This document shows positions 41,255-59,056 of a DNA stretch of 61,103 nucleotides, in pieces (position 1 is the stretch's first letter; every line of letters starts with the position of its first letter). A program made the position numbers and the translations under genes. The notes below the pieces were generated by a model. That model had not been told where the DNA came from and did not search any database. It was given only the letters and a program-made list of their open reading frames with translations. Origin of the DNA: Candidatus Omnitrophota bacterium (GTDB lineage: Bacteria > Omnitrophota > Gorgyraeia > Duberdicusellales > 4484-171); the NCBI GenBank assembly GCA_028692655.1, contig JAQUWY010000008.1, positions 1 through 61,103 of the forward strand. The letters are read 5' to 3'.

Positions 41255-43879
41255 ATGCTTTATAAATTTATAGACAACAAAGGCACTTTTCGCATAGATA
41301 ACCCTCAAGGATTAGGGCTCTATTTTCCTTTGACTGATAATTCAGGTGAAATTTTAAGTTCTATCAGCCCTAATTTAGGCGGGGATATTAAAAAAGATAA
41401 CGGCCACTTTCTCACACCTCCGGCAAGCATAACCGACGTCGAGAGCAACCTTCTTTGCCGCAGAGACTTTTTTATATCGGTTAACAACAAGCTTCTTCGG
41501 GCATCTTACCCTTGGAAAGATACCCTGGAAGCCGGCTTTCTTTATCATAAACTTACAAAAACATACGGAAATTTATGTTTAGAGATTATTAATTTCGTGC
41601 CTTATGATCTCGGTGTTGAAGTTATGTGGGTTAAGGCAATCAACCGCGGCCGCAAAAACATAACAATATCTCCGGTATCATGCCTACCCCTTTACGGACG
41701 GGGAGAAAATAATCTCAGAGACCACCGCCATGTAAGCAGCCTGCTCAACCGCCTTCAAGTACACCCTTACGGCCTATCTCTTAAACCGGAAATGACCTTT
41801 AATGAAAAGGGGCACTCTTTAAATACAGCTGTTTATTTTTGTTTTGGGTTCGAGAATAATTTTCTGGCTCCTATTGGGCAGTTCCCCACCCTTGAGCTTT
41901 TCTGCGGAAAAGGAAACCTTTTTTTTCCTGAAGCAATTCTGAAAAATAAGCCCGGTATAACAAAGGCTTTTCCTGCCTTGCAAGGTAAGGAAGCTTTGGC
42001 CGCCTTCCGCTTTAGGGAAAGAAAGCTTAAACCTGGCCAAGAATCAAATTATTTTCTCATTATGGGAATTGAAACAGGAATTAAAAATTCCACGAATAAA
42101 GCAATTAAAAGAGTACTGAAAAAATTAAACACTCCCCGTAAAATTTCCAAGAGTCTTGAAGAAACAAAAAAATACTGGCTCAACTACACTTCAAAAGTAA
42201 CTTTCGATTTTAAAAACAGGGATCTCAACAATTGGCTGCGCTGGGTAACTTTTCAGCCGACTTTAAGAAAACTTTTCGGATGTTCTTTCCTGCCCCATTT
42301 TGATTATGGAAAAGGCGGCAGGGGCTGGAGAGACCTCTGGCAGGACGCTCTGACCCTTCTTATAAGTGAACCGGAAGAAGCCGGGAAATTAATAACTAAA
42401 AGTTTTCAGGGAATACGCATTGACGGCTCCAACGCTACAATAATCACAAAAAATAATGATTTTCTCTCCGACCGTAACAGCATCCCTAGAATATGGATGG
42501 ATCACGGTATATGGCCATATTTGTGCCTTTGTTTTTACATAAACAAAACGGGCGATTTAAATATTTTAGAAAAAGACCTGGCTTATTTCCAGGATCATTT
42601 TCGCAAGCGCAACAAAGAAACCTTTGCCGCCGGCAAAGATTTTATCCTGCGTACTGGAAAAGGAAGGATATACAAAGGAAGTGTTTTAGAACATATCCTG
42701 GTGCAACACCTGACTTCTTTTTTTAACGTTGGGCGCCATAATATAATCCGGCTTGAAAACGCCGACTGGAATGATGGGCTGGATATGGCTCCGGAATTCG
42801 GTGAAAGTGTAACTTTCAGCTTTATGTTTGCTCACAACTTAAAAGATGTTTGCAACTTTTTAAGAGAGCTGAAAAAAACAAGAAAAACTGTTTTTTTGCT
42901 TAAAGAGCTAGGGCTTCTATTGGATAAAATAAACAGGCCCCTGGATTATAACAGCTTCGAAAATAAACAGGCCAGATTAAAAGAGTACCTGGATAAAACA
43001 AATAATTTAACCGGTAGAAGAATACCTTTTAGTATTGACAGCCTGATTTATGATTTAGAAAAAAAGTCCCAGCACTTGTCAAACTGGATATTAAAACACG
43101 AGTGGCTAAAGGAAGGTTTTTTTAACGGTTATTATGATAACCGTGGGCGCAAAGTCGAAGGCAAAAAAGGTAAAAAAACAAAGATGATGCTTGCCTCTCA
43201 AGTTTTTGCGATTATGAGCGGTATAGCTTCTAAAAAACAGATTAAAGAACTCTGGACTGAAATAACCCGTAATTTACAGGATAAAGCTCTGGGAGGGTTT
43301 CGCCTGAATACAGATTTTGGCTCGTTATATCCTGAACTAGGGAGAGCTTTCGGATTTTCCTACGGAGATAAAGAAAACGGTGCTTTTTTCAGCCACATGT
43401 CCATACTCCTGGCTAACGCTCTTTATAAACAGGGTTTTACAGCTCAAGCAAGAAAAGTTTTTAATTCACTTTATCAGATGTCGACATCTGATAATAGCCT
43501 AATATATCCCTGCCTGCCTGAATACTTTAATTCCCAAGGCAGGGGCCTCTATCTTTATCTAACAGGTTCTGCAAGTTGGTATACTTATACCCTACTGCAG
43601 GAAACACTGGGCATAAATTTTGTTATGGGTAATATTAAACTCCAACCCAAACTAACCGCTGATGATTTTATCAAGAACCGCATCGAAATTTGCCTTCCTT
43701 TTGCGGGAAAAATTATTAAATTTATATACCTGGCTAAAAAAAGAAAAAGAATATATTCGCTAGAAAAAGTTTTTCTAGAAAAAGCCCAGCTTCACCCTGA
43801 TAGCTGCTTTATCATTACCGCCAGAACCCTTAAGACGATAAAGAAACCTCTGGTAACTGTGAAACTTTATCTTAATTAG
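41255..43879 (+). CDS. GH94-family glycoside phosphorylase (cellobiose or related)
   Basis: An 874-residue inverting phosphorylase that yields alpha-glucose-1-phosphate from beta-glucosides. An N-terminal beta-sandwich (to about 280) precedes an (alpha/alpha)6 barrel with GKGGRGWRDLWQDALTLL, DGSNATIITKN, ENADWNDGLDMAPEFGE (Asp504 and Asp507 region of the general acid), and a C-terminal GSASWYTYTLLQETLGI. Family and fold are clear; the disaccharide is not, with cellobiose, laminaribiose and cyclic glucan types all possible. It stands alone, convergent with the pilus cluster. Confidence 0.85.
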   Translation: MLYKFIDNKGTFRIDNPQGLGLYFPLTDNSGEILSSISPNLGGDIKKDNGHFLTPPASITDVESNLLCRRDFFISVNNKLLRASYPWKDTLEAGFLYHKLTKTYGNLCLEIINFVPYDLGVEVMWVKAINRGRKNITISPVSCLPLYGRGENNLRDHRHVSSLLNRLQVHPYGLSLKPEMTFNEKGHSLNTAVYFCFGFENNFLAPIGQFPTLELFCGKGNLFFPEAILKNKPGITKAFPALQGKEALAAFRFRERKLKPGQESNYFLIMGIETGIKNSTNKAIKRVLKKLNTPRKISKSLEETKKYWLNYTSKVTFDFKNRDLNNWLRWVTFQPTLRKLFGCSFLPHFDYGKGGRGWRDLWQDALTLLISEPEEAGKLITKSFQGIRIDGSNATIITKNNDFLSDRNSIPRIWMDHGIWPYLCLCFYINKTGDLNILEKDLAYFQDHFRKRNKETFAAGKDFILRTGKGRIYKGSVLEHILVQHLTSFFNVGRHNIIRLENADWNDGLDMAPEFGESVTFSFMFAHNLKDVCNFLRELKKTRKTVFLLKELGLLLDKINRPLDYNSFENKQARLKEYLDKTNNLTGRRIPFSIDSLIYDLEKKSQHLSNWILKHEWLKEGFFNGYYDNRGRKVEGKKGKKTKMMLASQVFAIMSGIASKKQIKELWTEITRNLQDKALGGFRLNTDFGSLYPELGRAFGFSYGDKENGAFFSHMSILLANALYKQGFTAQARKVFNSLYQMSTSDNSLIYPCLPEYFNSQGRGLYLYLTGSASWYTYTLLQETLGINFVMGNIKLQPKLTADDFIKNRIEICLPFAGKIIKFIYLAKKRKRIYSLEKVFLEKAQLHPDSCFIITARTLKTIKKPLVTVKLYLN

Positions 43880-45200: not shown

Positions 45201-46736
45201 TTACTTTTCTTCTTCAAATCGAGAAGTAACCGCAGCTGTACCCATGAATTCTTCGGCGATTAACTCTCCCGGTTTAACTATTTTAGCAGTAATAAAAATT
45301 AGAAGGTCTATCTTCTCGGTATCGTGTGTGGTGCGTTTAAAAAACTGCCCTATGTAAGGTAAATCCTTCAGGAAAGGTATTCCTATGTCGTAGTCGGTCC
45401 TGACATCTTTTAAAAGCCCTCCTATAGCTATAGTCTCGCCATCTCTTATTATAACCTGAGTCTCCGCTTCCCGGGTAGTCAGCTTAGGATAACTGACTAT
45501 CGGCGTATCGTTAGCTGAAGCTTTAACATCAACCGTGCCATCCTGAGAAGTCACCGCCGGATGGACAATCATACTTATAAATTCCTCATTCTCTCCGGCT
45601 ATTTGAGGAACAACATTAAGCTGAATTCCTATATCCTGGTAATAATCAAGAGAGCCTCCGGTTATCCGGGAAGTCTCAGTGCTTATCTCGGTTTTTATAA
45701 TCGGGAATTTATCCCCCACCAAAATAGAAGCTTCCTGATTGTTAAGAGTAAGTATCACCGGAGCAGAAAGAGTATTGACTCTGCCGTCTTCTTCAAGAGC
45801 ATGAAAAATAACTTCAAATTGTGTTCCTGTTAATTTCTGGTATATCACTTTAAAGGCATTTTCGGTTAAACCGGCAGTTTTGGCTCCTGATCCGGCCGGT
45901 GTAGGCAAAACCACATGTGAAGCTATTTGTGCCAAATCTATGCCGTTTTTCTTATCGGCTGGAGTAAAAACAAAAGTATCAGCGTCATCGGCTCCGGTTG
46001 AACCGGTACCGTAGTCAAAGCCGATATCCCTAAGAACATCCTGGCCGACTTCCATAATTTTAGTCTTTATCAAAATCTGTTTGGGCTCAACGTCTATTTT
46101 GTCAAGCAGGGCGTCTATTTCATCAAGTTTTTTTGAAATGTCAGAAACCAGCATTATTTTTGTCCGGGACACTTTGCTTTCCCTGGCCCTGGTGCGCTTG
46201 GCAATATCAGTACCAAACTCCCAACCCGCCTGGCCGGTAACTTCCAGTATTGAAATCCTGCCCATAGGAGAAACCATAGTTTCTATGGCTTTTTTAGCAT
46301 CACTCGCATCAATATACTTTAACTGATAAACTTTGGTCCTGACCGGCTCTACCTCTTGGCGCTCTTTAGCCTGGGCTTCGCGCTGACTTATTTTTTCCAT
46401 AGTATCAACCAAAACTATATTGTTCCCTATCCACTCGTACCCATAATTGTATGGCCGGATTATTGCTTCCAGGGCTGTAAACCAGTCGACATCTTCTAAA
46501 TTTACACTGACAGTGCCTATAACATCAGGGCTGACTACAATATTCACATTTTTACCGTCCTTGGTGGCTTTCTGAGATATTGATTCAAGGACTATCTTGA
46601 TATCTACATCTTTGAATTTTATGGCCGGGATTAAATTTTCCTGAGCCGAAACAAAGCTGGTTCCGAAAAAAACCAACACCACGATAAATACTGCCGCCAT
46701 TTTTAATAGAGCTTTTTTATATTTCCTTAATCTCAT
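45201..46736 (-). CDS. pilQ: Type IV pilus/type II secretion secretin
   Basis: Forms the outer-membrane ring through which the pilus passes. The 511-residue protein has a signal peptide (about 1-31), an STN/N0-like domain (AIKFKDVDIKIVLESISQKA, residues 37-105), an N1-type domain (KVYQLKYIDASDAKKAIETM) and the secretin core (ILIKTKIMEVGQDVLRDIGFDYG to RDGETIAIGGLLKD and FLKDLPYIGQFFK). It lacks AMIN domains and is shorter than proteobacterial PilQ. Its start overlaps the PilP-like stop by 4 bases. Confidence 0.92.
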   Translation of the reverse strand: MRLRKYKKALLKMAAVFIVVLVFFGTSFVSAQENLIPAIKFKDVDIKIVLESISQKATKDGKNVNIVVSPDVIGTVSVNLEDVDWFTALEAIIRPYNYGYEWIGNNIVLVDTMEKISQREAQAKERQEVEPVRTKVYQLKYIDASDAKKAIETMVSPMGRISILEVTGQAGWEFGTDIAKRTRARESKVSRTKIMLVSDISKKLDEIDALLDKIDVEPKQILIKTKIMEVGQDVLRDIGFDYGTGSTGADDADTFVFTPADKKNGIDLAQIASHVVLPTPAGSGAKTAGLTENAFKVIYQKLTGTQFEVIFHALEEDGRVNTLSAPVILTLNNQEASILVGDKFPIIKTEISTETSRITGGSLDYYQDIGIQLNVVPQIAGENEEFISMIVHPAVTSQDGTVDVKASANDTPIVSYPKLTTREAETQVIIRDGETIAIGGLLKDVRTDYDIGIPFLKDLPYIGQFFKRTTHDTEKIDLLIFITAKIVKPGELIAEEFMGTAAVTSRFEEEK

Positions 46737-47124: not shown

Positions 47125-47685
47125 TTATTGTTTAAGACCCTCCGGAACTTCCTTCATAATCCCGTATAGCACCATATCAATTTTATCACCGGATAACCCG
47201 GTAGCTATACTTATTTTTTTAACATCAAAAAAGTATTTGCTCGACTGCAGATAATTAAAAAACAAAGCGAGATTATGGTACTTACTGCTGCCGCTTATAT
47301 GAATGGGCAAATATTTAAATTTCCCCTGCTCTAAGCCGTTATAATCCTCGCTTTTTTCGGAAGAAAATGATTTTATGTCAAACCCCAAGGATTTACCTGC
47401 TGAAGATATAAATGAAAGCAGCTGAGATTCCTGGTCAAAAGAAACAAACTTCTTCTGAATTACTTTTATTTCTTCTTCTAAAAGAAGCTCCTGGTTGTCA
47501 TAATCGTCTTTCTTGGGCCACTCTCTCGCTATATCCTTAAGTTTAAGGGAAAAACCGGAGATCTCTCTATTTAAAACGATTATCTGCCTGACGCTTAAAG
47601 GCAGCATCACTACTGCCTCGAGAATCAAAAAGATGCTTAGGCCGATAAAAATAATGCTTTGTTTGTCTAAAGTTATCTTCTGCAT
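47125..47685 (-). CDS. pilO: PilO-like pilus assembly protein
   Basis: A 186-residue inner-membrane protein: short cytosolic tail, transmembrane helix (about 10-30), a periplasmic coiled coil (35-85, KLKDIAREWPKKDDYDNQELLLEEE) and a ferredoxin-like fold (LPIHISGSSKYHNLALFFNYLQSSKYFFDVKKISI). Position after PilN, with a 13-base overlap, and the fold support PilO. Sequence similarity in this family is low, so the call rests on architecture and order. Confidence 0.8.
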   Translation of the reverse strand: MQKITLDKQSIIFIGLSIFLILEAVVMLPLSVRQIIVLNREISGFSLKLKDIAREWPKKDDYDNQELLLEEEIKVIQKKFVSFDQESQLLSFISSAGKSLGFDIKSFSSEKSEDYNGLEQGKFKYLPIHISGSSKYHNLALFFNYLQSSKYFFDVKKISIATGLSGDKIDMVLYGIMKEVPEGLKQ

Positions 47686-48248
47686 TCTATGAAAAACCTC
47701 AATACTTCGACACCGTTTACTTTGTCTATTTGAGAATTTTTTATTTTTACCTTACTGAAGACTGACGAGAAATACTTCTTTTTTCGCAGAGAATTTATAA
47801 ATTTGTCTAAAGAAACAAGATGATCCTCCTGCCATCTGACTACGTATCCGCGTAAATCCAAAAAGTCTTTATCAAGAACAAACCCCTCAAACCATATATT
47901 TTTAGGCAAGGAGGAAAAAATATCTTCCAGAAGAAAAACCATTTCATACTTAGGAGTCAGCACTTCCTGCAAGGATTCTTTTTCTTTATTTAGAAGCGCT
48001 GTTTCCGATTTTACATCTTTAATGAGAGAGGCTCTGTCTTCCCACTCAAGCCATTCGTTCCTATAAATACGGGCTGTGTACATTTTCCTTAAACCCACCG
48101 CCTGAAGAAGAATAATGATAACCAAAACAACGGCAGCAGCCAGGCCAATCAAAGGGGTGTAATTACTGAAATTCTGCAAAGTCAGGTTTGCGGCTTCTTT
48201 TTTCTGGGGATTTAAGTTTATGTAAATTTTTTTGAGGTCTTTGTGCAT
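47673..48248 (-). CDS. pilN: PilN-like pilus assembly protein
   Basis: A 191-residue inner-membrane protein. The cytosolic tail IYINLNPQKKE (8-18) matches the PilN INLLP-type segment that binds PilM; a transmembrane helix (31-51), coiled coil (60-105) and ferredoxin-like domain (IWFEGFVLDKDFLDLRGYV) follow. It sits between PilM (58-base gap) and PilO. Confidence 0.83.
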   Translation of the reverse strand: MHKDLKKIYINLNPQKKEAANLTLQNFSNYTPLIGLAAAVVLVIIILLQAVGLRKMYTARIYRNEWLEWEDRASLIKDVKSETALLNKEKESLQEVLTPKYEMVFLLEDIFSSLPKNIWFEGFVLDKDFLDLRGYVVRWQEDHLVSLDKFINSLRKKKYFSSVFSKVKIKNSQIDKVNGVEVLRFFIECRR

Positions 48249-48306: not shown

Positions 48307-49299
48307 CTAAGATATCAACCCGAATACAGCCGGGAAACCATGTTTTATGGGCTGAAAACTTTCTCGAGAAAAAGAAGGGCTAAAAATATCTTGGGATACC
48401 GGTATAGCCTCTAAAACATTTATTTTTACCTCGAGGAAATCCGAAAGTGCTTTGGACATACCATCAATGCCGGAAAGCCCTCCGCTTACATAAAGAGAGT
48501 CAATATGGCCGCCTTTGTTGACTTCGAAATAATCGAAAGAGCTTTTTATTTCCTTGCTTAAATTAGAAAGACTGTCCTGCACTATGTCGGATAAAAGCTG
48601 TCCGTTCTTAGAAGCCTTAAGCCACTCCTGAACATCGCAAATTTGTATGTTTTGAGTGCGGGATATAACCTGAAAAATATCCTGGGCGCTAAACTTTATA
48701 TCACGGGTAAGAAAAGGGACTCCTTTATTAAGAATGGTTATGGCGGAAAACTTATAACCTATATCAAGAATGCAGGCATTAGCATTAAGATTTTCCTTAT
48801 AATTATCAAGAAAAAAGTTTATTAAGCATACGCTATCAAGAGTTATTTCTGAGACTTTCAAATTTATTTTTTTAAGGTCTTCCAGGATACCGTCAAGGAA
48901 GTCTTTTTTTGCCACTGCCAAAAGTATCATGAGCTCCGAAGGATTGTTTTCCTTTAAAACAAAATAGTCATAATAAACCTCTTCGGGAGAGAAGGGTATG
49001 AACTTGCTCATTTCGTAAAAAAGAGCTTCTTTTAACCTTTTTTTTTCCATTTTAGGAAAGGGGAAATACCTGATAAGGCAGGCAGGATCTTTCAAAGATA
49101 TTTTAACTTTTCTTTCACTTATTTTCTTATCAATCCAGATCTTTTTCAAGGCTTCAGACAAAACTTCTTTTTTTTCCATAAAGTAATCAGAAACTTTTCC
49201 TTCCTTGACAATAAGCCCTTTAAGGTAAAGATTACCCATGTCTATGCCCACAAAACTATCACTGCTGGGCCCCAAAAACTTATTCTGCAGGTGGATCAT
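48307..49299 (-). CDS. pilM: PilM-like actin-fold pilus assembly protein
   Basis: A 330-residue cytosolic ATPase-fold protein that binds the tail of PilN. FVGIDMGNLYLKGLIV (phosphate-1-like), YDYFVLKE, CILDIGYKFSAITIL (phosphate-2-like) and DSLYVSGGLSGIDGMSKAL (adenosine region) are visible. The start overlaps the upstream pilin by 20 bases, so translation is likely coupled. Confidence 0.88.
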   Translation of the reverse strand: MIHLQNKFLGPSSDSFVGIDMGNLYLKGLIVKEGKVSDYFMEKKEVLSEALKKIWIDKKISERKVKISLKDPACLIRYFPFPKMEKKRLKEALFYEMSKFIPFSPEEVYYDYFVLKENNPSELMILLAVAKKDFLDGILEDLKKINLKVSEITLDSVCLINFFLDNYKENLNANACILDIGYKFSAITILNKGVPFLTRDIKFSAQDIFQVISRTQNIQICDVQEWLKASKNGQLLSDIVQDSLSNLSKEIKSSFDYFEVNKGGHIDSLYVSGGLSGIDGMSKALSDFLEVKINVLEAIPVSQDIFSPSFSRESFQPIKHGFPAVFGLIS

Positions 49300-49720
49300 T
49301 GTCAGTTGCTTCTCCTTCTGAATTAACCCTTAAGACGTTGGTCTCATCAAGGTAAAAATACCTTGTCCCGGTTTTACCCGGCGTGCGGGGATTAACGTTG
49401 ATATGGAAAGAATCCGGGCCGTCATATATATAATTAAACAAATACCCCGACTTAGAACCGCTCGCTAATTGAGATGTGGTGTAACCCACTAACTGGCTCA
49501 ATTCTGTAGGGTATCTCTTATTATTGTCGGTATAATACATTTGAAGCGAGGTATATAAGGCCCTGACATTAGCAACAGCGGTGGCCTCATTTGAGGTAAC
49601 TCTGGCTCTGAGCATACTCGGAACGAAAGCAAAAACCAAAATCATAATCACGGTCACAACAATCATGATTTCAACCAGGGTAAAATCGCGGCATTTTAGA
49701 GAGAAAGAATGTTTTTTCAT
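49280..49720 (-). CDS. Type IV pilin-like protein with an atypical cleavage site
   Basis: A 146-residue GspG/PilE-like pilin. The hydrophobic helix FTLVEIMIVVTVIMILVFAF starts at Phe13 with Glu17 as position +5. The residue before the cut is Asp12 instead of the usual Gly, so processing may be poor or use a different enzyme. The C-terminal domain has the GspG-like PRTPGKTGTRYFYLDETNVLRVNSEGEA. It lacks N-X-S/T sequons. It heads the pilMNOPQ unit behind a strong promoter and a leader of about 120 bases. Confidence 0.85.
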   Translation of the reverse strand: MKKHSFSLKCRDFTLVEIMIVVTVIMILVFAFVPSMLRARVTSNEATAVANVRALYTSLQMYYTDNNKRYPTELSQLVGYTTSQLASGSKSGYLFNYIYDGPDSFHINVNPRTPGKTGTRYFYLDETNVLRVNSEGEATDNDPPAE

Positions 49721-49849
49721 AAAATCTTACCTCGCTGAAACAATACTTTGTGTTGGAAAGATTTGATAAGTTAATACCCGGCTAATATTTCTTTTAATCA
49801 CGAAAATATAGAAGTACTCCACGTCCCGCGCAGCACCTTTATACTATAT

Positions 49850-49878
49850 ATATTATTATAGTTATTCAGGGTTGTCAA
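49850..49878 (-). promoter_or_regulatory. Promoter of the pilin-pilMNOPQ unit
   Basis: TTGACA (49873-49878), 17-base spacer, TAATAT (49850-49855) on the minus strand. The implied leader is about 120 bases. Confidence 0.75.
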
Positions 49879-49936
49879 CGCTATACTGGAGACATAACGG
49901 GAAGCATAAAGAAACCAACAGTCTATAAAATATATA

Positions 49937-49985
49937 GGTTGAGGTTAAGATTAAGGTTAAGGTTAAGGTTGAGGCTAAGATTAAG
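49937..49985. repeat. Degenerate GGTTAA/GGTTGA hexamer array
   Basis: Eight or so head-to-tail six-base units (GGTTGA, GGTTAA, GATTAA). Complementary CTCAAC-type units recur at 50297-50325 and GGTTGA units at 53051-53070. Confidence 0.7.
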
Positions 49986-50048
49986 AAAAACCAGAAGAAG
50001 CTATAAGTTGCAAGCTTTAAGCCGTAAGCTTCGGATATATAATTCTTA

Positions 50049-50135
50049 AGATGTGTTTACATATTTTGTGTAAAGGCAAACGGTATACGGTTGCGTAACT
50101 CGTATCGTTATTCGTTTGCCGGCTGCGTTAATAAA
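50049..50135 (+). repeat. 87-bp direct repeat, copy 1 (left of stt3)
   Basis: Identical over 87 bases to 53375-53461, and still similar for about 60 more. The GGCAAACG/CGTTTGCC ends at 50075-50120 can form an imperfect hairpin. Confidence 0.9.
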
Positions 50136-50183
50136 ATCTTATGAATAGAGGCGATTAACGTTCAACGACAGCCGCTTCGAGCT

Positions 50184-50308
50184 GCCTGCCTACCGGTAGG
50201 CAAGGTCTTAACTTCCCTATTCTTTATGTTTTTCAGTCTTTCTGTTTTTAGTTCTTTAGTTTTCTGTTTTTTTGTCTTTTGGTTTTTTAGTTTTTCTCAA
50301 CCTCAACC
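50184..50308 (+). repeat. Inverted repeat, left arm (beside stt3)
   Basis: Reverse-complementary to 53058-53230. The stretch 50230-50308 matches perfectly over 79 bases, and 50184-50233 matches with one difference; the right arm has about 48 extra bases between these blocks. Begins with a CCTGCCTACCGGTAGG palindrome. Confidence 0.9.
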
Positions 50309-50338
50309 TTAGCCTTTGCCTCAACCTGCATTCCTATT

Positions 50339-52879
50339 TCAGTTTGCATCCGGCCAATCAATCATAAAGGCATATAAAGAATTTTTATCATCTGCAACTA
50401 AAGGCTTAAAATATTTAAGGCCCTCTCCTTTGGCAAAATACAGACGGCTAAACAGGCTTTTCCCTAAACCCTCGTTGGTTAAACCCACGGATTTCCACCC
50501 AAGTTTGTTCCTGACAATAAGGCACCCTGTTTTAAGCGTATCTTCTGAGGCTTCATTTTTTTTATACATTAACCTGCCGCCATCAAAAAACAGCACATAT
50601 TTAAACATCCTGTATTGTTTCTGTTGGCCCAAATATATCCTGGCTTTGCCGCTGTCGGGATAAAAAATTACGCCGTTATCAAAATAAACAGCCTCTTCTT
50701 GCTGGCTACCGGTGCCCACGGTTCCGGAAAACTGCCAACGCCGAGACAGTTCTTCGCTCTTTTCTTTTCCTGAATAAGCTAGCAGCGCCTCTTCATACAA
50801 AAGCTCAACCCTGCTTGTATTTAACCCAAAAGTATTCTTGGTTCCTTCAATGACGATTTCTTTGTCTAAGCCTATGTGTTTAGCAATATAGACTTTAGAA
50901 AAATCCCAATTACCTAAAAAGGATAGGTTTGATATATACCTGGTCATTTTCTTATTAACTAGAATGCAGGCCGGTGCGGGGCGGCGCGAAAAAATCGTTT
51001 CTTTTATACGAATACGCAAGGCTTTCGACAATCCGTATTCAAGCATTATTGCATCGGCAGATTTAGCCTCTGATTTTAGTATCTTATTGAGGCAAGCTAT
51101 CGCTCTAAATTCATCGCCCAATGCGCTTTCTATTTCCATAAAAAGTTTATCGGAAGAATTATTTATCATTCTCAATATCCTGAGAGCCTCCTCTTCGTTT
51201 TCGGCTAAAAAAACTCTTGCCATCCAATAGGTAATGGGGCCGCCTTGAACCTGAGGATCCACCACGGAACGGCGCCGAGAAACTTCTTTTATCCAGTTAC
51301 CGTAATCCCACCAGGCATTTACTATGCAGTTTGTTGGGGTTTGTTTTTTTATTTTAATTAAAAAATCGTTCCAGGCGTCATTCATTAACGGCGTTTGCCT
51401 TTGAGCCTGGATAATCCCCCTATTAGTTAAAAAAACGACGCCTAAGCTTATAAAAAATACAATCAAATACCGAAAAACTCTCTTCCAAGAAGCACTCCTT
51501 AACTCTTCTATAAAAGACCAAAGCTTCTTTGCGGCTTCACTGAGCCCTAAACCCAAAAAAACGCTTAGAGGAAGGCAGAGAAAAAATGTAAAACGCAGGC
51601 CTTTCAAACTGGCAAAAACCATAAAAAACATCCAAAGCGTTAATAAGATTAAACTGTCGGCCTGTTTGGTTTTTCTGCGCGTTATATACTGCCATAGAAA
51701 CCCTGCTATAGCTAAAATAAATAAAAAAGAGCCTCCCGTATACACAGGAATACTTCTAAAATCTCCGGGTGTTAGTTCAGAAACAGTGTAAACAACTAAT
51801 GGCCATATAGAAATGGTCATAGATACTCCCAGGCCTAAATTCTCTCTTATAGCTGCATAAGTGCTTGATATTGGCTCAAGGCCTGCCACGGTGAAGCAGA
51901 AAACCTCACTAAAAACCAGAAAAACAACAAAAGACAACAAGTAATCGCTTAAATCTTTTATTGTAGTTTGACGGCCATGCAATAGGATAAGCTTGTTTAA
52001 AATAGTTATTATGAAAAAAATGATTACAGTAAGATATATGAACCACCAGCCAATCCAGGTATAAGCGAATACAGCTAAAAATAAAGCCGATAAAATTGTT
52101 AAAAATATGTTTTTAAAGTATTTTGAGCTTTTTAGGCCGGCGGCCAAAGACCAAACGGCCAATAACGGCAAAATAAGGCTTAAGGTATCCTGGTCAAACC
52201 ATCCGGCACAACTGCGGCTAATAAAAGCCGGCGAAAGGCCTAAAAACAAAACCGCTAAAATTCCAGAACTTTTTGTAAAAATATGCCGGCAGAATAAATA
52301 AAGAATCAAAAAAAGTAAACCCGCATAAAATACTGGTAGGTAAAAAACAAATGCCTCAAGGCTTAAAGCCGGTATGAATATAGCAGGTACCCGGTACAAC
52401 CAGGCTGAAAGATAATAGAGAAACCTGTAGGAAGGAACTTGGCTGCCCAGAGGAGCCAGCATAAATGTATCATATACTTTCCCGCCTTCGATTTTGTTTC
52501 CGGGATAGCCATTCTCAAGAATAAGCCTGGTAAAACGCAGGCGGCAATAAGGGTCCACTTCCAGAAGAAAAGTCTGCCCGGAATCATCCTGATATTTACT
52601 CTTTAGCTTTTTATATTCTTTATACGTATCTTCTTTGAAAAGCTTTCTGTTTTTTTTACGGGCAGTTACTACTTCTTTAGCTATTTTTTCTTTGACTAAA
52701 GGGTTAAACTCCGGCCTTGTCTTCTCGACAAATTCATAGGCCTCCTGAAACATTTTTTTATCTACATTAAAGACTGCTTGTTCTTTGTATTGAGGAAAAT
52801 ACGCAGGAAATAATAAGAGGTAAATATTGAAGCCCGCGGCAAGAAAAAGAAAGCAAATAGGAAATATTTTTTTTCTCAT
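50339..52879 (-). CDS. STT3/PglB/AglB-type oligosaccharyltransferase
   Basis: An 846-residue membrane enzyme that moves a lipid-linked glycan to Asn in N-X-S/T. All STT3 signatures are present: VDPYCRLR with Asp109 in the first loop, GWFDQDT (226-232), a TVSE motif (365-368) and WWDYG (523-527), which binds the sequon. About 12 transmembrane helices lie between residues 5 and 490, with a soluble C-terminal domain. A 95-residue periplasmic insert follows the first helix. It stands alone between two pilin genes, flanked by direct and inverted repeats. No glycan-assembly (pgl) genes are in the window. Confidence 0.92.
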   Translation of the reverse strand: MRKKIFPICFLFLAAGFNIYLLLFPAYFPQYKEQAVFNVDKKMFQEAYEFVEKTRPEFNPLVKEKIAKEVVTARKKNRKLFKEDTYKEYKKLKSKYQDDSGQTFLLEVDPYCRLRFTRLILENGYPGNKIEGGKVYDTFMLAPLGSQVPSYRFLYYLSAWLYRVPAIFIPALSLEAFVFYLPVFYAGLLFLILYLFCRHIFTKSSGILAVLFLGLSPAFISRSCAGWFDQDTLSLILPLLAVWSLAAGLKSSKYFKNIFLTILSALFLAVFAYTWIGWWFIYLTVIIFFIITILNKLILLHGRQTTIKDLSDYLLSFVVFLVFSEVFCFTVAGLEPISSTYAAIRENLGLGVSMTISIWPLVVYTVSELTPGDFRSIPVYTGGSFLFILAIAGFLWQYITRRKTKQADSLILLTLWMFFMVFASLKGLRFTFFLCLPLSVFLGLGLSEAAKKLWSFIEELRSASWKRVFRYLIVFFISLGVVFLTNRGIIQAQRQTPLMNDAWNDFLIKIKKQTPTNCIVNAWWDYGNWIKEVSRRRSVVDPQVQGGPITYWMARVFLAENEEEALRILRMINNSSDKLFMEIESALGDEFRAIACLNKILKSEAKSADAIMLEYGLSKALRIRIKETIFSRRPAPACILVNKKMTRYISNLSFLGNWDFSKVYIAKHIGLDKEIVIEGTKNTFGLNTSRVELLYEEALLAYSGKEKSEELSRRWQFSGTVGTGSQQEEAVYFDNGVIFYPDSGKARIYLGQQKQYRMFKYVLFFDGGRLMYKKNEASEDTLKTGCLIVRNKLGWKSVGLTNEGLGKSLFSRLYFAKGEGLKYFKPLVADDKNSLYAFMIDWPDAN

Positions 52880-53057
52880 ATTTCAGGTAGTTTATTTTAT
52901 CATATTAAAGCAAGCAGGCAATACGAATGTGGCTAAAGGTTACGGGTCAAAAGCTATAAATAGCATATACCATGCAGGTTGAGGCTTAAAAAAAGTCCAC
53001 GGTCCACGGTCGATAGTCCATGGTCCATAGACGATAGGCTGTACAGGTTAAGGTTGC

Positions 53058-53230
53058 GGTTGAGGTTGAGAAAAACTAAAAAACCAAAAGACAAAAAAAC
53101 AGAAAACTAAAGAACTAAAAACAGAAAGACTGAAAAGCTGAAAGACCAAAAAACCGAAGAACATAAAAACTAAAAGATTGAAAAACATAAAGAATAGGGA
53201 AGTTAAGACCCTGCCTACCGGTAGGCAGGC
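53058..53230 (-). repeat. Inverted repeat, right arm (beside stt3)
   Basis: Mate of 50184-50308 in opposite orientation, with a perfect 79-base block at 53058-53136. Ends with the 20-base palindrome CCTGCCTACC/GGTAGGCAGG at 53210-53229. The middle holds an about 48-base extra stretch of the same A-rich style. Confidence 0.9.
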
Positions 53231-53374
53231 GCTAACCAAAAACCGAAAGAACATTTCTTTAGCGGAAATACGGTAGAATTATACAGAAATAGATAGAAAT
53301 AACTCGTTTCAACAAAGTTTCAAGCAGAATAAGTTCTAAGCCCTAAGTTATAAGCTCTAAGTGTAAAATTGTAG

Positions 53375-53461
53375 AGATGTGTTTACATATTTTGTGTAAA
53401 GGCAAACGGTATACGGTTGCGTAACTCGTATCGTTATTCGTTTGCCGGCTGCGTTAATAAA
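53375..53461 (+). repeat. 87-bp direct repeat, copy 2 (right of stt3)
   Basis: Same orientation and sequence as 50049-50135. Beyond position 53461 it differs by a one-base gap and scattered changes. Confidence 0.9.
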
Positions 53462-53630
53462 TCTCATGAATAGAGACGGTTGACGTTTAACAACAGCCAT
53501 TTCGAGTCGTGCAACCCTCTAACGATGAATGATACGGTTATAGAGTAGACTGTAAATATAACTTTCGAATAATACAGGATTTGTTTAGAGTTTAGTATTT
53601 CGGATTTAGGATTTTTCCGGTGTCCTGTGC

Positions 53631-53680
53631 TTGTCCTGAGCCCTTCGATTTCACTCAGGATAAACGAAGTCGAAGGAGCG
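53631..53680. repeat. REP-like palindromic element
   Basis: Two interleaved pairs: CCTGAG (53635-53640) with CTCAGG (53654-53659), and CCTTCG (53642-53647) with CGAAGG (53671-53676). Elements of this type are widespread in many bacterial genomes between genes. Confidence 0.55.
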
Positions 53681-53731
53681 CTCTTGAAAGTGCTAATCGA
53701 ACCATCTGGCATTTTCGAGCAAGGCCTCATT

Positions 53732-53763
53732 AAAAAAAGGCGGTGGTTTAAACCACCGCCTTT
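53732..53763 (-). terminator. Rho-independent terminator of the main pilin gene
   Basis: Perfect stem GGCGGTGG / CCACCGCC around TTTAAA, extended by AAA/TTT; on the minus strand it ends in a seven-base T run. It lies 20 bases after the pilin stop. Confidence 0.92.
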
Positions 53764-53783: not shown

Positions 53784-54242
53784 TTATTCTACTTCAGCAA
53801 ATCCAGTCGGACATCCTGAACCAGTGTGAGTTGTAGGCGCACTGGTATTCGTAGAATTAGACCTGCATAAAACTCCGTCTTCATCAATGTAAAAAGTATG
53901 AGCTTGACTTAAAGTCTGAGGAGCTGCAGTCGCTATAAACTGCGAACCTGTGCTTCCAGACACCGGAGTAGCGGTAAAGTTATAACCTTGCTTAGCTCCG
54001 GCGGCCAAAGTGGAATCAACATACGGCGGGTCATCATCATCAAGATTAGCCAAAGCAGCATAGGCAGAATGTGTTGCCCTATACTGAACTTCCGCGGCAG
54101 CTATCGTATGCAAAGCTGCAGCGGCGGCGGCTTCCTGAGCAGAAACCCTTGCTCTCAACAGGTTAGGAATAGCTATAGCTGCTAAAAGAGCGATAATGGC
54201 CACAACGATCATAATTTCGACTAAAGTAAAACCTTTCTTCAT
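53784..54242 (-). CDS. pilA: Major type IV pilin
   Basis: A 152-residue prepilin with the classic short leader MKKG then FTLVEIMIVVAIIALLAAIA (Gly4 at -1, Glu9 at +5), and NLLRARVSAQEAAA after the hydrophobic helix. Cys126 and Cys144 bound a C-terminal disulfide loop. Sequons are N88-F-T, N129-S-T and N132-T-S, the last two inside that loop. The ATG has GGAGGTG 5 bases upstream. Own promoter and terminator make it a single-gene, highly expressed unit. It is the best candidate for the major pilin; the glycosylation idea is inference. Confidence 0.93.
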   Translation of the reverse strand: MKKGFTLVEIMIVVAIIALLAAIAIPNLLRARVSAQEAAAAAALHTIAAAEVQYRATHSAYAALANLDDDDPPYVDSTLAAGAKQGYNFTATPVSGSTGSQFIATAAPQTLSQAHTFYIDEDGVLCRSNSTNTSAPTTHTGSGCPTGFAEVE

Positions 54243-54388: not shown

Positions 54389-55603
54389 TTAGTGCATCCC
54401 ACCTATATATTGAGTGATTTTTATAATCGGCAGGAATAAAGAGACCACTATTCCTCCCACAACTACGCCCAAAAAAGCAATTACCATCGGCTCGATAAGG
54501 CTGGCCAGGCCGGCTACCATAGCATCGGTCTGTTCTTCGTAAAACTGAGCTATTTTAGAAAGCATCTCTTCCAGCCGGCCGCTTCTTTCTCCAATAGCTA
54601 CCATTTTAACTACCATGGGAGGAAAAACTCCTGTCCGCTCAAGAGGAACAGAAATAGGCTGGCCTTCTTGAATGGATTTCTTCGAAGCCAGCACCGCTTC
54701 TTCGATAATTTTATTTCCCGAAGTTTTAGCGACAATATCCAAGCAATTCATGATTGAAACTCCGCTCTTAGCAAGAGTAGCAAATGTCCGGGAAAATTTG
54801 GCAATTGCCATTTTCCTTATAAGCTCTCCGAATACGGGCAGCTTAAGGAGCATTTTATGGAAATTTCTCTTGCCCTTATCTGTTCTAATATACCTTTTAA
54901 AAATGAAAGAAACTATTATAAGGATTCCAAGTATAGACAGAAGAATGACAGGCTTTCTTATAAAATCAGAAAAAGCTATCAGTATCTGTGTAGGAAGCGG
55001 CAGGACTCCGCCTAAAGAAGCAAATATTTCCTTAAATGTAGGAATTACTTTAAAAACTAAAAATCCGGTTATAGCTATAGCCATCAATATTATAACAACC
55101 GGATAATACAAAGCAGATAAGACTTTCTTTCTCAAAGCACTGCTTTTTTCAAGATACACCGAAACCCTGTTTAAAATATCGGGCAGATTCCCTGAAGCTT
55201 CCGCTGCTTCAACCATGCTAAGGTAGATATCCGGAAAAACATCTTTGTGTTTTTTGAAAGCTGCTGAAAGCGATGCCCCCTCTTTTACTTCTCTGAGGCT
55301 GTCAGTAATAACACTTTTAAAATAAGCGGTTTCTACCTGGCTTTCCAATATCCCCAAACACTCTACAACCGGTATCCCGCTCTCTATAAGAGTGGTAAAT
55401 TGCCTTGAGAACACCACCAAATCATCGGTTTTAACACCGCGGTGAGCTTTCTTTTTCGGTTTAACTTTAGTTTCGCTGATAGAAAAAATTAACTGCTGCT
55501 GTTTATGAAAATGCTGGATTAAAGACTCTTTGGTTTCAGCCTCAACAGTCCCTTTGGTAACATTGCCGTCTTTGTCCTTGACAACGTAAGCAAATAATTT
55601 CAT
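54389..55603 (-). CDS. pilC: Type IV pilus inner-membrane platform protein (PilC/GspF)
   Basis: A 404-residue polytopic protein. Two T2SSF repeats are visible: FSRQFTTLIESGIPVVECLGILE (from residue 65) and FSRTFATLAKSGVSIMNCLDIVA (from about 268), each followed by helical and transmembrane segments (GFLVFKVIPTFKEIF; MVIAFLGVVVGGIVVSLFLPII). The N-terminus YVVKDKDGNVTKGTVEA is the usual PilC start. It is 1 base after the PilB stop. Confidence 0.95.
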   Translation of the reverse strand: MKLFAYVVKDKDGNVTKGTVEAETKESLIQHFHKQQQLIFSISETKVKPKKKAHRGVKTDDLVVFSRQFTTLIESGIPVVECLGILESQVETAYFKSVITDSLREVKEGASLSAAFKKHKDVFPDIYLSMVEAAEASGNLPDILNRVSVYLEKSSALRKKVLSALYYPVVIILMAIAITGFLVFKVIPTFKEIFASLGGVLPLPTQILIAFSDFIRKPVILLSILGILIIVSFIFKRYIRTDKGKRNFHKMLLKLPVFGELIRKMAIAKFSRTFATLAKSGVSIMNCLDIVAKTSGNKIIEEAVLASKKSIQEGQPISVPLERTGVFPPMVVKMVAIGERSGRLEEMLSKIAQFYEEQTDAMVAGLASLIEPMVIAFLGVVVGGIVVSLFLPIIKITQYIGGMH

Positions 55604-55604
55604 A

Positions 55605-57314
55605 TTATTCTGAAGTTACCCTTATAACCTCTTCCAATGACGTAACGCCTTCGGCACATTTAAGAAAACCGTCTTCTTTCAACGACTTGTACTCCCGATA
55701 TTGACGGGAATATTGAGTAATTGTTTCTTCCGGAACTTTTTCTATAATCATTTCTTTTATCTTATCATCTAAAAGAATGATTTCAAGAACAGCTATTCTT
55801 CCCCGATAACCGCTGTTATTACAGTATTGGCACCCTTTAGGAGAATAAAATTCCCGTGTCTTGTGCTGGCGGCAAAATTCATCTATACCCAGGCGCTTAC
55901 TCTCTGCCTCTTGCAAAATATACTTCTCTTTACACCTTGGGCATAATTTTCTGGCAAGCCTCTGAGCGGTTAAAGCTACCAGGGAAGAGGCAAGCAGAAA
56001 AGGCTCAGTGCCCATATCCCGCAGACGGGTAATAGCCCCTACAGCACTGTTGGTATGCAGAGTTGAAAGTATTGTTTCGCCCGTCAAAGAAGCTTTAATG
56101 GCAATATCGGCTGTTTCAGAATCTCTGATTTCTCCTACCATAATCACGTCGGGAGACTGCCTTAATACCGAGCGCAGGCCGGCTGAAAAAGTCAAGCCGA
56201 TATCCGCATTAACTTGTATTTGGGTTATGCCTTCTAAGTGGTATTCAACCGGGTCCTCAATGGTGACTATATTTTTTTCAGGAGTATTGATTTGATTGAT
56301 TATTGAATAAAGCGTTGTAGACTTACCGCTGCCGGTAGGCCCGGTAACAAGAATTATCCCAAAAGGTGCTTTTACGGCCTGATCAAATAATTCCAAAGGC
56401 TTTGAAGAAAACCCCAGTTTTTTAAGCCCTATGGAAAGGCTTTCTTTATCAAGGACTCTTAAAACAAACTTTTCACCAAAATTAGTCGGAAGGCTTGAAA
56501 CTCTGAAATCTATTTCCCGGCTTTCAAATTTTGCCCGGAACCGGCCGTCCTGCGGCAGGCGTGATTCGGTTATATCTAAAGATGAAATTATTTTGAGCCT
56601 GGCGATTACGGCTTGCTGATTAGCTTTAGGAAAACTGAATTCATCACTCAAAACCCCGTCTATTCTGTATCTGACAACCAACTTATCCTCATAAGGCTCA
56701 ATATGAATATCTGAAGCTCTTTTCTTAAGAGCATTATATATAATAACATCTATTGCCCGAACAATAGGGGGGTGCTTGCTTTCCTTGACAAGAGTCTCTA
56801 AATCATCCCTTTTTTCTCCTTCCCCGTAAGAAGCTTCCGGCTCAAAATAAGTGTCTTTATCAAAGCTTTCGGCAATCTCCTGGTTTGTTTTATACAAATC
56901 ATTAATGGCTTTGGCGATATCATTTTGGCGGGAAAGAACTAAATCCACCTTTTCGACCCCAGTGATTATTTTAATATCATCATAAATGATAATATCCAAG
57001 GGGTTGGATGTAGCTAAAGTAAGCGCATTTCCTATTTTGCATAAAGGCAGGACTTTATACTTAACCGCTGCCTCCTTCGGCAAAAAAGCCTGGTTTCCAT
57101 AAGGCAATTTGTATTTACGCAGGTCCAAAAAAGGTATTTTCAGCTCTTTTGAAAAAATCAAAAGAAGCTCCTCTTCATTGGCAAGGCCATTTTCGATTAA
57201 AAGTTTTTTAAAATCATCGTAGCCTTTGGTTTTTTTATCTATTTCTGATAAAAGTTTAGAAGCGCTTTTTTTATTATTTTCTATATACTGAAGTATTTTC
57301 TGCTTTACAGTCAT
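55605..57314 (-). CDS. pilB: Type IV pilus/type II secretion assembly ATPase (PilB/GspE), copy 1
   Basis: A 569-residue hexameric motor. N-terminal MshEN-like domain (1-160), then RIDGVLSDEFSFP, Walker A GPTGSGKST, Asp box TIEDPVEYHLEGI, Walker B VIMVGEIRDSETADIA and the His box LHTNSAVGAI. A tetracysteine zinc motif (LCPRCKEKY ... CQYCNNSG) is near residue 460-510. It is 32 bases after a second PilB-like gene and just before pilC, which suggests it is the one that drives PilC. Confidence 0.95.
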   Translation of the reverse strand: MTVKQKILQYIENNKKSASKLLSEIDKKTKGYDDFKKLLIENGLANEEELLLIFSKELKIPFLDLRKYKLPYGNQAFLPKEAAVKYKVLPLCKIGNALTLATSNPLDIIIYDDIKIITGVEKVDLVLSRQNDIAKAINDLYKTNQEIAESFDKDTYFEPEASYGEGEKRDDLETLVKESKHPPIVRAIDVIIYNALKKRASDIHIEPYEDKLVVRYRIDGVLSDEFSFPKANQQAVIARLKIISSLDITESRLPQDGRFRAKFESREIDFRVSSLPTNFGEKFVLRVLDKESLSIGLKKLGFSSKPLELFDQAVKAPFGIILVTGPTGSGKSTTLYSIINQINTPEKNIVTIEDPVEYHLEGITQIQVNADIGLTFSAGLRSVLRQSPDVIMVGEIRDSETADIAIKASLTGETILSTLHTNSAVGAITRLRDMGTEPFLLASSLVALTAQRLARKLCPRCKEKYILQEAESKRLGIDEFCRQHKTREFYSPKGCQYCNNSGYRGRIAVLEIILLDDKIKEMIIEKVPEETITQYSRQYREYKSLKEDGFLKCAEGVTSLEEVIRVTSE

Positions 57315-57346: not shown

Positions 57347-59056
57347 TTAATCTTTTTTAATCGCTTCATCCGGTTCAGTAACTTTAAGAACCTCTTCCAG
57401 GGTAGTTATTCCCTTCTCCAATTTAATAATTCCGTCCTCGCGTAAAGTTCGCATACCCAATGAACGCGCCTGTTTCTTGATTGAGCCTTGTGAAGCCGAA
57501 GAGTTTATAAGGCTTCTTATCTGATGAGAAACCTTTAAATACTCACAAAGAGATACTCTTCCTCTATATCCTGTGTTATGGCATCTTCGGCACCCCTTAG
57601 CTTTATATATTATTGCTTTTTCGCTGATAAGGTATTTCTCTCTGACACTTTTAGGCATATCAATTTTCTCTTTACATTCCGGACAAAGCAGACGAACAAG
57701 CCTCTGGGTGAGAACTCCTATCAAAGTAGAAGATAATAAAAACGGTTCAACACCCATATTGATAAGACGGGTTACTGAACCGGCACTGGTAGTAGTATGT
57801 AGTGTTGAAAGGACCAAATGGCCTGTAAGAGCCGATTTTATAGCCATATCTGCAGTGTCGGCATCTCTTATTTCTCCAATCATAATTATATCGGGATCCT
57901 GGCGTAATATAGACCGCAAAGCAGATGCAAAAGTCAGATCTATGGCCGGATTAATACTAACCTGATTAATTCCTTTTAATTGATACTCTATGGGATCTTC
58001 TACTGTAACGATATTCTTTTCGGGGCTGTGAATGTGGCTTAAGACAGAGTACAAAGTAGTAGTTTTGCCTGCCCCTGTAGGCCCACAAGTCAAAATTAAT
58101 CCATGAGCCTTGAGGCTGTCTTCTTTCATATCTCTTAAAACATAATCCTCAAACCCCAAAAGATCTAAATTCAAGAGGGCTGTTGTTTTATCTAATACAC
58201 GAATGGCGATTTTTTCACCCATACTGGTAGGAAGCACCGAAACTCTAAAATCCACATCCTTATTCAGGATTTTTCCCCGGAACCTCCCCTCCTGGGGAAG
58301 CCGGTGTTCAGCAATGTTGAGATTGCACATAACTTTTATTCTCGAAACGACAAAAGGATGTATTTTCTTGGAAAATGGTTCCAACTCTTTTAACAAACCG
58401 TCTACCCGCAAACGTATTCTGCTAACATCCTCCAGGGGCTCAATAAGTATATCGGAAGTTTTATCTTCAACCGCCCGCTCAAGAAGAGAGTTGGTAAATT
58501 TTATTACCGGGGCTTCTTCGATAGAGACAACAGCTTCTTCCTGTGTTTCTGATTTTTTACTCCTTTTTATAATTTCTAGATTTTCTACATTATGGTCCTT
58601 GATAATATCTTCTATGGCTTCAACCGGTGCCTGGCTATACTGGGTTGATATAACTTCTTTTATTTCTGAAAAAGGGGCGATTATAGGATTGACTTCACAT
58701 TTAGTCATTTTTTTTACGTTATCAATAGCAAGGACATTGAGGGGGTCTGCCATAGCTAAAGTCACGGCATTGCCTATTTTACCTATTGGTAGAATATTGT
58801 TTTCTCTGGCTATACGTTCCGGAATTAAAGCCAGGACATCTTTGGCTATAGCAATATTAAGAATTCTGATTGGCGGGATAGAAAGATAGTCTGCCAGTGC
58901 ATTGACTAACTGCGGCTCCTTTATGTATCCAAGCTTAGCCAAGAGTTCTACCAGGGAACCTTTGGTTTTTTTATGCACATCCAGGACTTTCTGGAGGCTG
59001 TTTTTATCAAGCAATCCTTCATCAAGAAGGTATTCTGTAAATTTCTTTTTACTCAT
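57347..59056 (-). CDS. Type IV pilus/type II secretion assembly ATPase (PilB/GspE), copy 2
   Basis: A second 569-residue PilB/GspE ATPase, clearly diverged from copy 1. MshEN domain with FTEYLLDEGLLDKNSLQKVL, Walker A GPTGAGKTT, TVEDPIEYQLKGI, IIMIGEIRDADTADMA, LHTTTSAGSV and zinc cysteines (LCPECKEKI ... CRRCHNTG). It is upstream of copy 1. One may power elongation of the GspG-like pilin and the other PilA; a retraction role is unlikely as neither looks like PilT. Confidence 0.93.
   Translation of the reverse strand: MSKKKFTEYLLDEGLLDKNSLQKVLDVHKKTKGSLVELLAKLGYIKEPQLVNALADYLSIPPIRILNIAIAKDVLALIPERIARENNILPIGKIGNAVTLAMADPLNVLAIDNVKKMTKCEVNPIIAPFSEIKEVISTQYSQAPVEAIEDIIKDHNVENLEIIKRSKKSETQEEAVVSIEEAPVIKFTNSLLERAVEDKTSDILIEPLEDVSRIRLRVDGLLKELEPFSKKIHPFVVSRIKVMCNLNIAEHRLPQEGRFRGKILNKDVDFRVSVLPTSMGEKIAIRVLDKTTALLNLDLLGFEDYVLRDMKEDSLKAHGLILTCGPTGAGKTTTLYSVLSHIHSPEKNIVTVEDPIEYQLKGINQVSINPAIDLTFASALRSILRQDPDIIMIGEIRDADTADMAIKSALTGHLVLSTLHTTTSAGSVTRLINMGVEPFLLSSTLIGVLTQRLVRLLCPECKEKIDMPKSVREKYLISEKAIIYKAKGCRRCHNTGYRGRVSLCEYLKVSHQIRSLINSSASQGSIKKQARSLGMRTLREDGIIKLEKGITTLEEVLKVTEPDEAIKKD

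Follow-up and report, generated by a model that had tools for sequence, protein, structure and literature searches.

A type IV pilus locus of Omnitrophota encodes an STT3-family oligosaccharyltransferase with the adjacent pilins as its probable clients

In Bacteria, N-glycosylation is experimentally known from few lineages only, and the bacterial pilin glycosylation known to us so far is O-linked. In Archaea, AglB attaches N-glycans to pilins (PMC5131992). For PglB, a structural review (PMC7226087) names D56, D154/D156, E319, R375, and the WWD motif as important; the roles it assigns are in activating the Asn, in binding metal, at the lipid phosphate, and in recognizing the +2 Ser/Thr. In the TfpO/TfpW cassettes of Pseudomonas, the accessory gene was proposed to be expressed at a lower level owing to an intrinsic terminator (PMC11841053). 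The main genome paper on Omnitrophota counts T4aP and Tad pili among symbiosis-related genes, and its main text mentions neither glycosylation nor STT3 (PMC10066038). In the literature searched, outside of which lay most subscription papers, neither an Omnitrophota STT3 nor an STT3 devoted to the pilins of bacteria was found to be described.

The locus described here lies in a 61,103-nucleotide stretch of DNA from a Candidatus Omnitrophota bacterium (contig JAQUWY010000008.1), called the window below. It contains the single STT3 gene of the genome (1.65 Mb, 62 contigs, 91% complete). The product matched the Pfam STT3 family over residues 95-476 with 124.9 bits (curated cut-off, 24.5 bits), and residues 519-584 matched the core domains of AglB and PglB below threshold. 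A GT-C membrane domain (residues ~1-495) is followed by soluble C-terminal domains (496-846). Searching with phmmer retrieved the structures of human STT3A, PglB, and AglB, and a profile of 55 relatives matched AglB (3waj, E 3e-28), STT3A (E 3e-20), and PglB (E 2e-15) in the PDB. The scores were below the cut-offs of the NCBIfam PglB equivalog NF050801 (46.2 versus 1300 bits) and of the archaeosortase-associated archaeal STT3 TIGR04154 (91.8 versus 450 bits), placing the predicted protein outside both subfamilies. The four hallmark motifs and the reading frame (846 aa) at the position given by the first-pass annotation were all confirmed (Table 1).

Read along the minus strand, STT3 is preceded by the genes for two PilB/MshE-type ATPases, PilC, and pilin A, then by an intrinsic terminator and a gap filled with repeats. 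After STT3 come another gap filled with repeats and the genes for pilin B, PilM, PilN- and PilO-like proteins, a small protein of T2SSB-like type, a secretin, and an AAA ATPase. Rfam detected no RNA features near the STT3 locus. A gene for a GH94-like protein (41255-43879, plus strand) adjoins the operon; such a gene also flanks the type IV pilus (T4P) operon of locus L108, and a relative of it is directly beside STT3 in L116.

Table 1. Features of the STT3 gene and the surrounding pilus locus (positions in the window)
Feature	Position	Strand	Evidence
PilB/MshE-type ATPase	57347..59056	-	Pfam T2SSE E 1.7e-127
PilB-type ATPase	55605..57314	-	Pfam T2SSE E 1.5e-135
PilC/GspF platform protein	54389..55603	-	Pfam T2SSF E 7.5e-58
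Pilin A, probable major type IV pilin, three N-X-S/T sequons	53784..54242	-	Pfam N_methyl E 1.5e-7
N-F-T sequon, pilin A (precursor N88, strand 87-93)	53973..53981	-	Sequon scan and structure
N-S-T-N-T-S, two adjacent sequons (precursor N129, N132), pilin A D-loop	53841..53858	-	Coil between two C-terminal Cys
Intrinsic terminator, 12-bp stem, directly 3' of pilin A	53736..53763	-	Hairpin
Dispersed intergenic repeats, pilin A-STT3 gap	52880..53735		61 matches genome-wide
STT3-type oligosaccharyltransferase, 846 aa	50339..52879	-	Pfam PF02516 E 7.5e-36; AlphaFold; PglB 6gxc fold match
VDPY, residues 108-111 (D109 = PglB D56 counterpart)	52547..52558	-	D109 invariant, 55 homologues
FDQD, residues 228-231, metal-binding DxD	52187..52198	-	D229 and D231 invariant, 55 homologues
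TVSE, residues 365-368 (E368 = PglB E319 counterpart)	51776..51787	-	E368 invariant, 55 homologues
WWDYG, residues 523-527, +2 Ser/Thr recognition motif	51299..51313	-	Alignment of 55
STT3-pilin B gap, copies of same repeats at 50003-50181, 50221-50316	49721..50338		Repeat matches
Pilin B (minor pilin / GspG-like), no sequon	49280..49720	-	Pfam T2SSG E 0.001; NCBIfam PilA/GspG-like
PilM	48307..49299	-	Pfam PilM_2 E 2.8e-22
PilN-like gene	47673-48248	-	Position only
PilO-like gene	47125-47685	-	Pfam PilO E 9.7e-5
PilQ-type secretin	45201..46736	-	Pfam Secretin E 5.1e-44

Such an enzyme had been expected to be unusual in this kind of bacterium. This expectation was not borne out at the level of the phylum, since STT3 was found above the Pfam cut-off in 128 of 384 Omnitrophota genomes. 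In family f4, STT3 is present in 27 of 79 genomes. In a survey of neighboring genes, T4P or type II secretion system (T2SS) genes were present at a distance of at most 8 kb at 36 of the 81 STT3 loci examined, and near 16 of 356 random genes (~4.5%) from three genomes. The corresponding binomial p of 5e-27 overstates the case, because related loci were counted together and the background was small, with each of its 16 positives coming from the same genome. STT3 is located inside or beside the corresponding T4P operon in L001, L085, L108, L109, L111, and L113, as well as at eight loci of other families. In L108 and L109 it lies between PilC/pilins and pilin/PilM, its position in the window, but without the large gaps seen there. 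A contig end falls inside the STT3 gene of L111, with a pilin and PilM next to it; in L001 and L113 the gene follows the pilins and precedes glycosyltransferases; and in L085, which is cut by a contig end, a pilin is upstream. T4P placement is recurrent; the case that would have spoken against the first-pass annotation, with the gene away from pilus loci in every relative, did not arise. Five T4P loci of the same family lack STT3 (L193, L195, L197, L198, and L202), and their genomes contain no match to the window protein. Other STT3 genes are located between QueA and TGT or beside an AglJ-like GT2 only, showing that pilus placement is frequent, not universal.

A tree was calculated from Omnitrophota and archaeal STT3 sequences only. 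A starred branch unites the window STT3 with its five nearest relatives, all of them in T4P context. Six changes are required on the tree for T4P context (four of them forced by starred branches) and six for T2SS context, indicating either several origins of the association or repeated losses. The 81 Omnitrophota sequences are separated from the archaeal ones by a branch with a support of 100; this clean separation lends no support to a recent transfer from archaea. The STT3 proteins of L117 (G025) and L118 (G010), both from family f1 genomes, nest among family f4 sequences, which suggests transfer within the phylum.

Two further groups were noted. A probable conserved cluster with STT3 is found in other Omnitrophota families (L211-L214, L217, L218, L220, L223, L225, L229, L247, and L248); in L225, its one Pfam-typed member, STT3 is exactly between QueA and TGT of the queuosine pathway. 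A second STT3 branch is located at the end of GspE-F-G-K-L-M type II secretion operons, usually in convergent orientation (L120, L122, L124, L239, L245, L246, L250-L255, L258, L261-L265, and L267), and in some of these loci a PDZ/S41 protease gene adjoins STT3.

Sequons (N-X-S/T, X not Pro) were counted in pilins beyond the N-terminal helix, and the expected numbers were obtained by shuffling residues within each pilin. Pilins encoded in an operon with STT3 contained 35 sequons in families f1/f2 (13 pilins; 19.0 ± 3.8 expected) and 77 in other families (24 pilins; 37.1 ± 5.4 expected). Shuffling in local blocks of 15 residues gave the same outcome. No enrichment was seen in T4P-operon pilins of STT3-less genomes (10 sequons, 8.2 expected), in pilins of genomes with STT3 elsewhere (7 sequons, 7.0 expected), or in T2SS pseudopilins beside convergent STT3_b (25 sequons, 21.7 expected); on the last result, these pseudopilins were rejected as clients of STT3_b. 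In a stricter control with the reversed motif, the signal was weak in f1 (L085 left out; 28 sequons versus 20 reversed, p 0.16), and 77 sequons versus 49 reversed (p 0.008) were counted in the other families. In L303 (G289:C16), some ten genes for Flp-type pilins (QSTxEYA) are arrayed in tandem and show a marked N-X-S/T excess, with 31 sequons versus ~12 expected when the rows are summed; this genome, G289, has STT3 in a T4P operon.

In pilin A of the window, the coil flanked by the two C-terminal cysteines holds two of the three sequons. Of the six closest STT3-linked pilins, four have sequons in this D-loop; the two orthologues from STT3-less loci (L193 and L197) have none there. In the aligned loops, they were found in L109 (both pilins) and L111 and were missing from L108, L193, and L197. 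It counts against the pilins as clients that the three sequons of pilin A (~0.8 expected) are not significant when taken alone and that pilin B has none. In addition, repeats and a terminator stand between STT3 and pilin A, so that co-transcription of the two in this genome is only putative.

From the placement of the gene, the first-pass annotation had proposed glycosylation of pilins or secreted proteins. The pilin part is strengthened by the recurrent T4P placement and by a sequon enrichment confined to STT3-linked pilins, whereas the secreted-protein part found no backing: 38 exported proteins of the window genome contained 46 sequons, a ratio of 1.00 to the shuffled expectation, and N-glycosylation across the secretome was rejected for this genome. 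The ratio of 1.29 for exported proteins of the STT3-bearing G289 is uninformative, because STT3-less G014 matches it (1.25). These data bear on the possibility that the enzyme is a general-purpose N-oligosaccharyltransferase (N-OST) for many envelope or secreted proteins, for which the pilus locus was a convenient insertion site with no functional link. The many Omnitrophota STT3 genes away from pilus genes, such as those between QueA and TGT, speak for it. We nevertheless regard it as unlikely, given that a sequon excess is found in STT3-linked pilins and not in exported proteins, and that T4P placement recurs with four to six changes on the tree.

Residue conservation was analyzed in an alignment of 55 Omnitrophota homologues with 22-45% identity to the window STT3. 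D109, D229, D231, E368, R429, and W524 are invariant in all 55 and correspond to the PglB set listed above. In WWDYG, W523 is conserved in 53, W524 in 55, D525 in 47, and G527 in 54 of the 55 sequences. In the C-terminal region of the MXXI (PglB) or DK (AglB/STT3) motif, the alignment shows a nearly invariant M571 and a DK-like pair at 577-578. The AlphaFold model has a pLDDT of 93 and a pTM of 0.91, and its sole segment with pLDDT below 50 is at residues 349-354, just ahead of TVSE. At this place, known OSTs have a mobile loop. In a Foldseek comparison with the PDB, the best match was PglB 6gxc (E 7e-21, TM 0.67 by target length), and the top 19 matches were all OSTs. The predicted fold is in line with the first-pass annotation, and a failure of the catalytic residues to align, which would have refuted it, did not occur. 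By every decidable criterion of sequence and predicted fold, the product belongs to the STT3/PglB/AglB oligosaccharyltransferase family.

An OST-fold GT-C enzyme could also make another product, acting as a DPY19-like C-mannosyltransferase or as a lipid or polysaccharide glycosyltransferase with pilin or envelope acceptors. After the OSTs, DPY19 (C-mannosyltransferase; E 9e-9) and AftA (E 8e-8) are the next fold matches, and neither the MXXI nor the DK sub-motif could be assigned in the window STT3. Against this stand the retention of all OST-specific residues (E368 in TVSE, and WWD as the motif for recognizing the +2 Ser/Thr), the 19 of 19 best fold matches to OSTs, and a pilin enrichment for exactly the OST sequon; we therefore consider another product very improbable.

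The gene had also been described as sitting alone between two pilin genes. STT3 is indeed the sole gene there, but the gaps of 0.9 kb on the pilin A side and 0.6 kb on the pilin B side hold dispersed repeats. A hairpin like the terminator of pilin A is also present 3' of the pilin in L108, L109, and STT3-less L193, and its presence in L193 means that the pilin-terminator arrangement is not specific to STT3. That STT3 is decaying or horizontally inserted cargo without a current role, as the same-family repeats on both flanks and the STT3-less T4P operons in same-family genomes might suggest, is hardly credible in view of its intact frame of 846 codons, the catalytic residues invariant across distant homologues, and its retention at the same position without large gaps in the near relatives L108 and L109.

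The glycan donor is the weakest link of the N-glycosylation proposal. An AglJ-like GT2 is encoded directly 3' of STT3 in many relatives. AglJ is an archaeal N-glycosylation enzyme that charges dolichol phosphate. It is the best NCBIfam model for this GT2, with 168.5 bits (below the cut-off of 325 bits). No AglJ-like GT2 was found in the window genome or in G005, G006, and G028, so the donor there must come by another route. A glycan-assembly cluster within the window was considered and rejected: the genes at 1-26 kb belong to glycogen, trehalose, and PEPCK metabolism, not to the synthesis of lipid-linked oligosaccharides. They encode glycogen phosphorylase, GlgC, a glycogen synthase-like protein, a GH57 branching enzyme, GH77, trehalose-6-phosphate synthase and phosphatase, GH65, and PEPCK.

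Taken together, the fold predicted for STT3, its invariant catalytic residues, its place in the pilus operon, and the excess of sequons in pilins linked to it lead us to propose, with good though not full confidence, that STT3 is a pilin-dedicated, single-subunit bacterial N-OST whose main clients are the pilins encoded beside it. We infer its activity, sequon use here, donor lipid and glycan, timing, and biological role as follows. STT3 in the inner membrane would take a polyprenyl-linked glycan and transfer it to the asparagine of N-X-S/T at the outer face of this membrane. The adjacent type IV pilin subunits would be modified in the membrane, before or during pilus assembly, and the glycans would end on exposed loops, in the window genome mainly on the pilin A loop between the two C-terminal cysteines. 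Since pilins beside STT3 in relatives have about twice the chance number of sequons, the pili are probably sugar-coated by the window enzyme. The coat may, for example, help to evade phages, aid adhesion, or protect pili that contact a host. More broadly, we see an even chance that Omnitrophota harbor an old bacterial STT3 lineage spread across the phylum, within which one branch specialized in the N-glycosylation of type IV filament subunits (T4P pilins and, in some members, arrays of Flp pilins). With its N-linked glycans, this branch would parallel the O-linked glycosylation of pilins known in Proteobacteria, perhaps shielding the pili of these small, host-contacting cells.

If correct, a pilin-dedicated STT3 across a large uncultured phylum would widen the range of bacterial N-glycosylation, adding N-glycosylated bacterial type IV pili as a function. 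It would explain a sequon pattern that is directly checkable in environmental metaproteomes, and it would offer a source of diverse single-subunit OSTs with natural acceptors encoded alongside.

Among known systems, the bacterial single-subunit N-OST PglB of Campylobacter shares the fold (best PDB match 6gxc/5ogl) and the catalytic Asp/DxD/Glu/Arg/WWD set. In contrast, identity over the fold alignment is only ~16%, the NCBIfam PglB score is far from the cut-off (46 versus 1300 bits), and the window STT3 is linked to a pilus operon instead of a pgl sugar operon. Archaeal AglB is the strongest sequence-profile match (3waj, E 3e-28) and has in common the WWDYG-type motif, an AglJ-like partner (in Omnitrophota relatives), and pilins as clients, which the genes suggest for the Omnitrophota enzyme. 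It differs in that the Omnitrophota sequences are across the branch with a support of 100, in the NCBIfam archaeal STT3 score (92 versus 450 bits), and in its setting, which in Omnitrophota is bacterial T4P machinery with a secretin. Eukaryotic STT3A and STT3B have the same fold and catalytic residues but are part of a multisubunit ER complex. With Pseudomonas TfpO/TfpW, the likeness is a functional analogy only: in those cassettes, too, the gene for a dedicated pilin-modifying enzyme comes after the pilin gene and an intrinsic terminator (PMC11841053), an order also seen here, with the terminator between pilin A and STT3 and with STT3 adjoining pilins in relatives. The TfpO/TfpW enzymes are non-STT3 and add O-antigen units or arabinofuranose, whereas the window enzyme belongs to the N-linking STT3 family.
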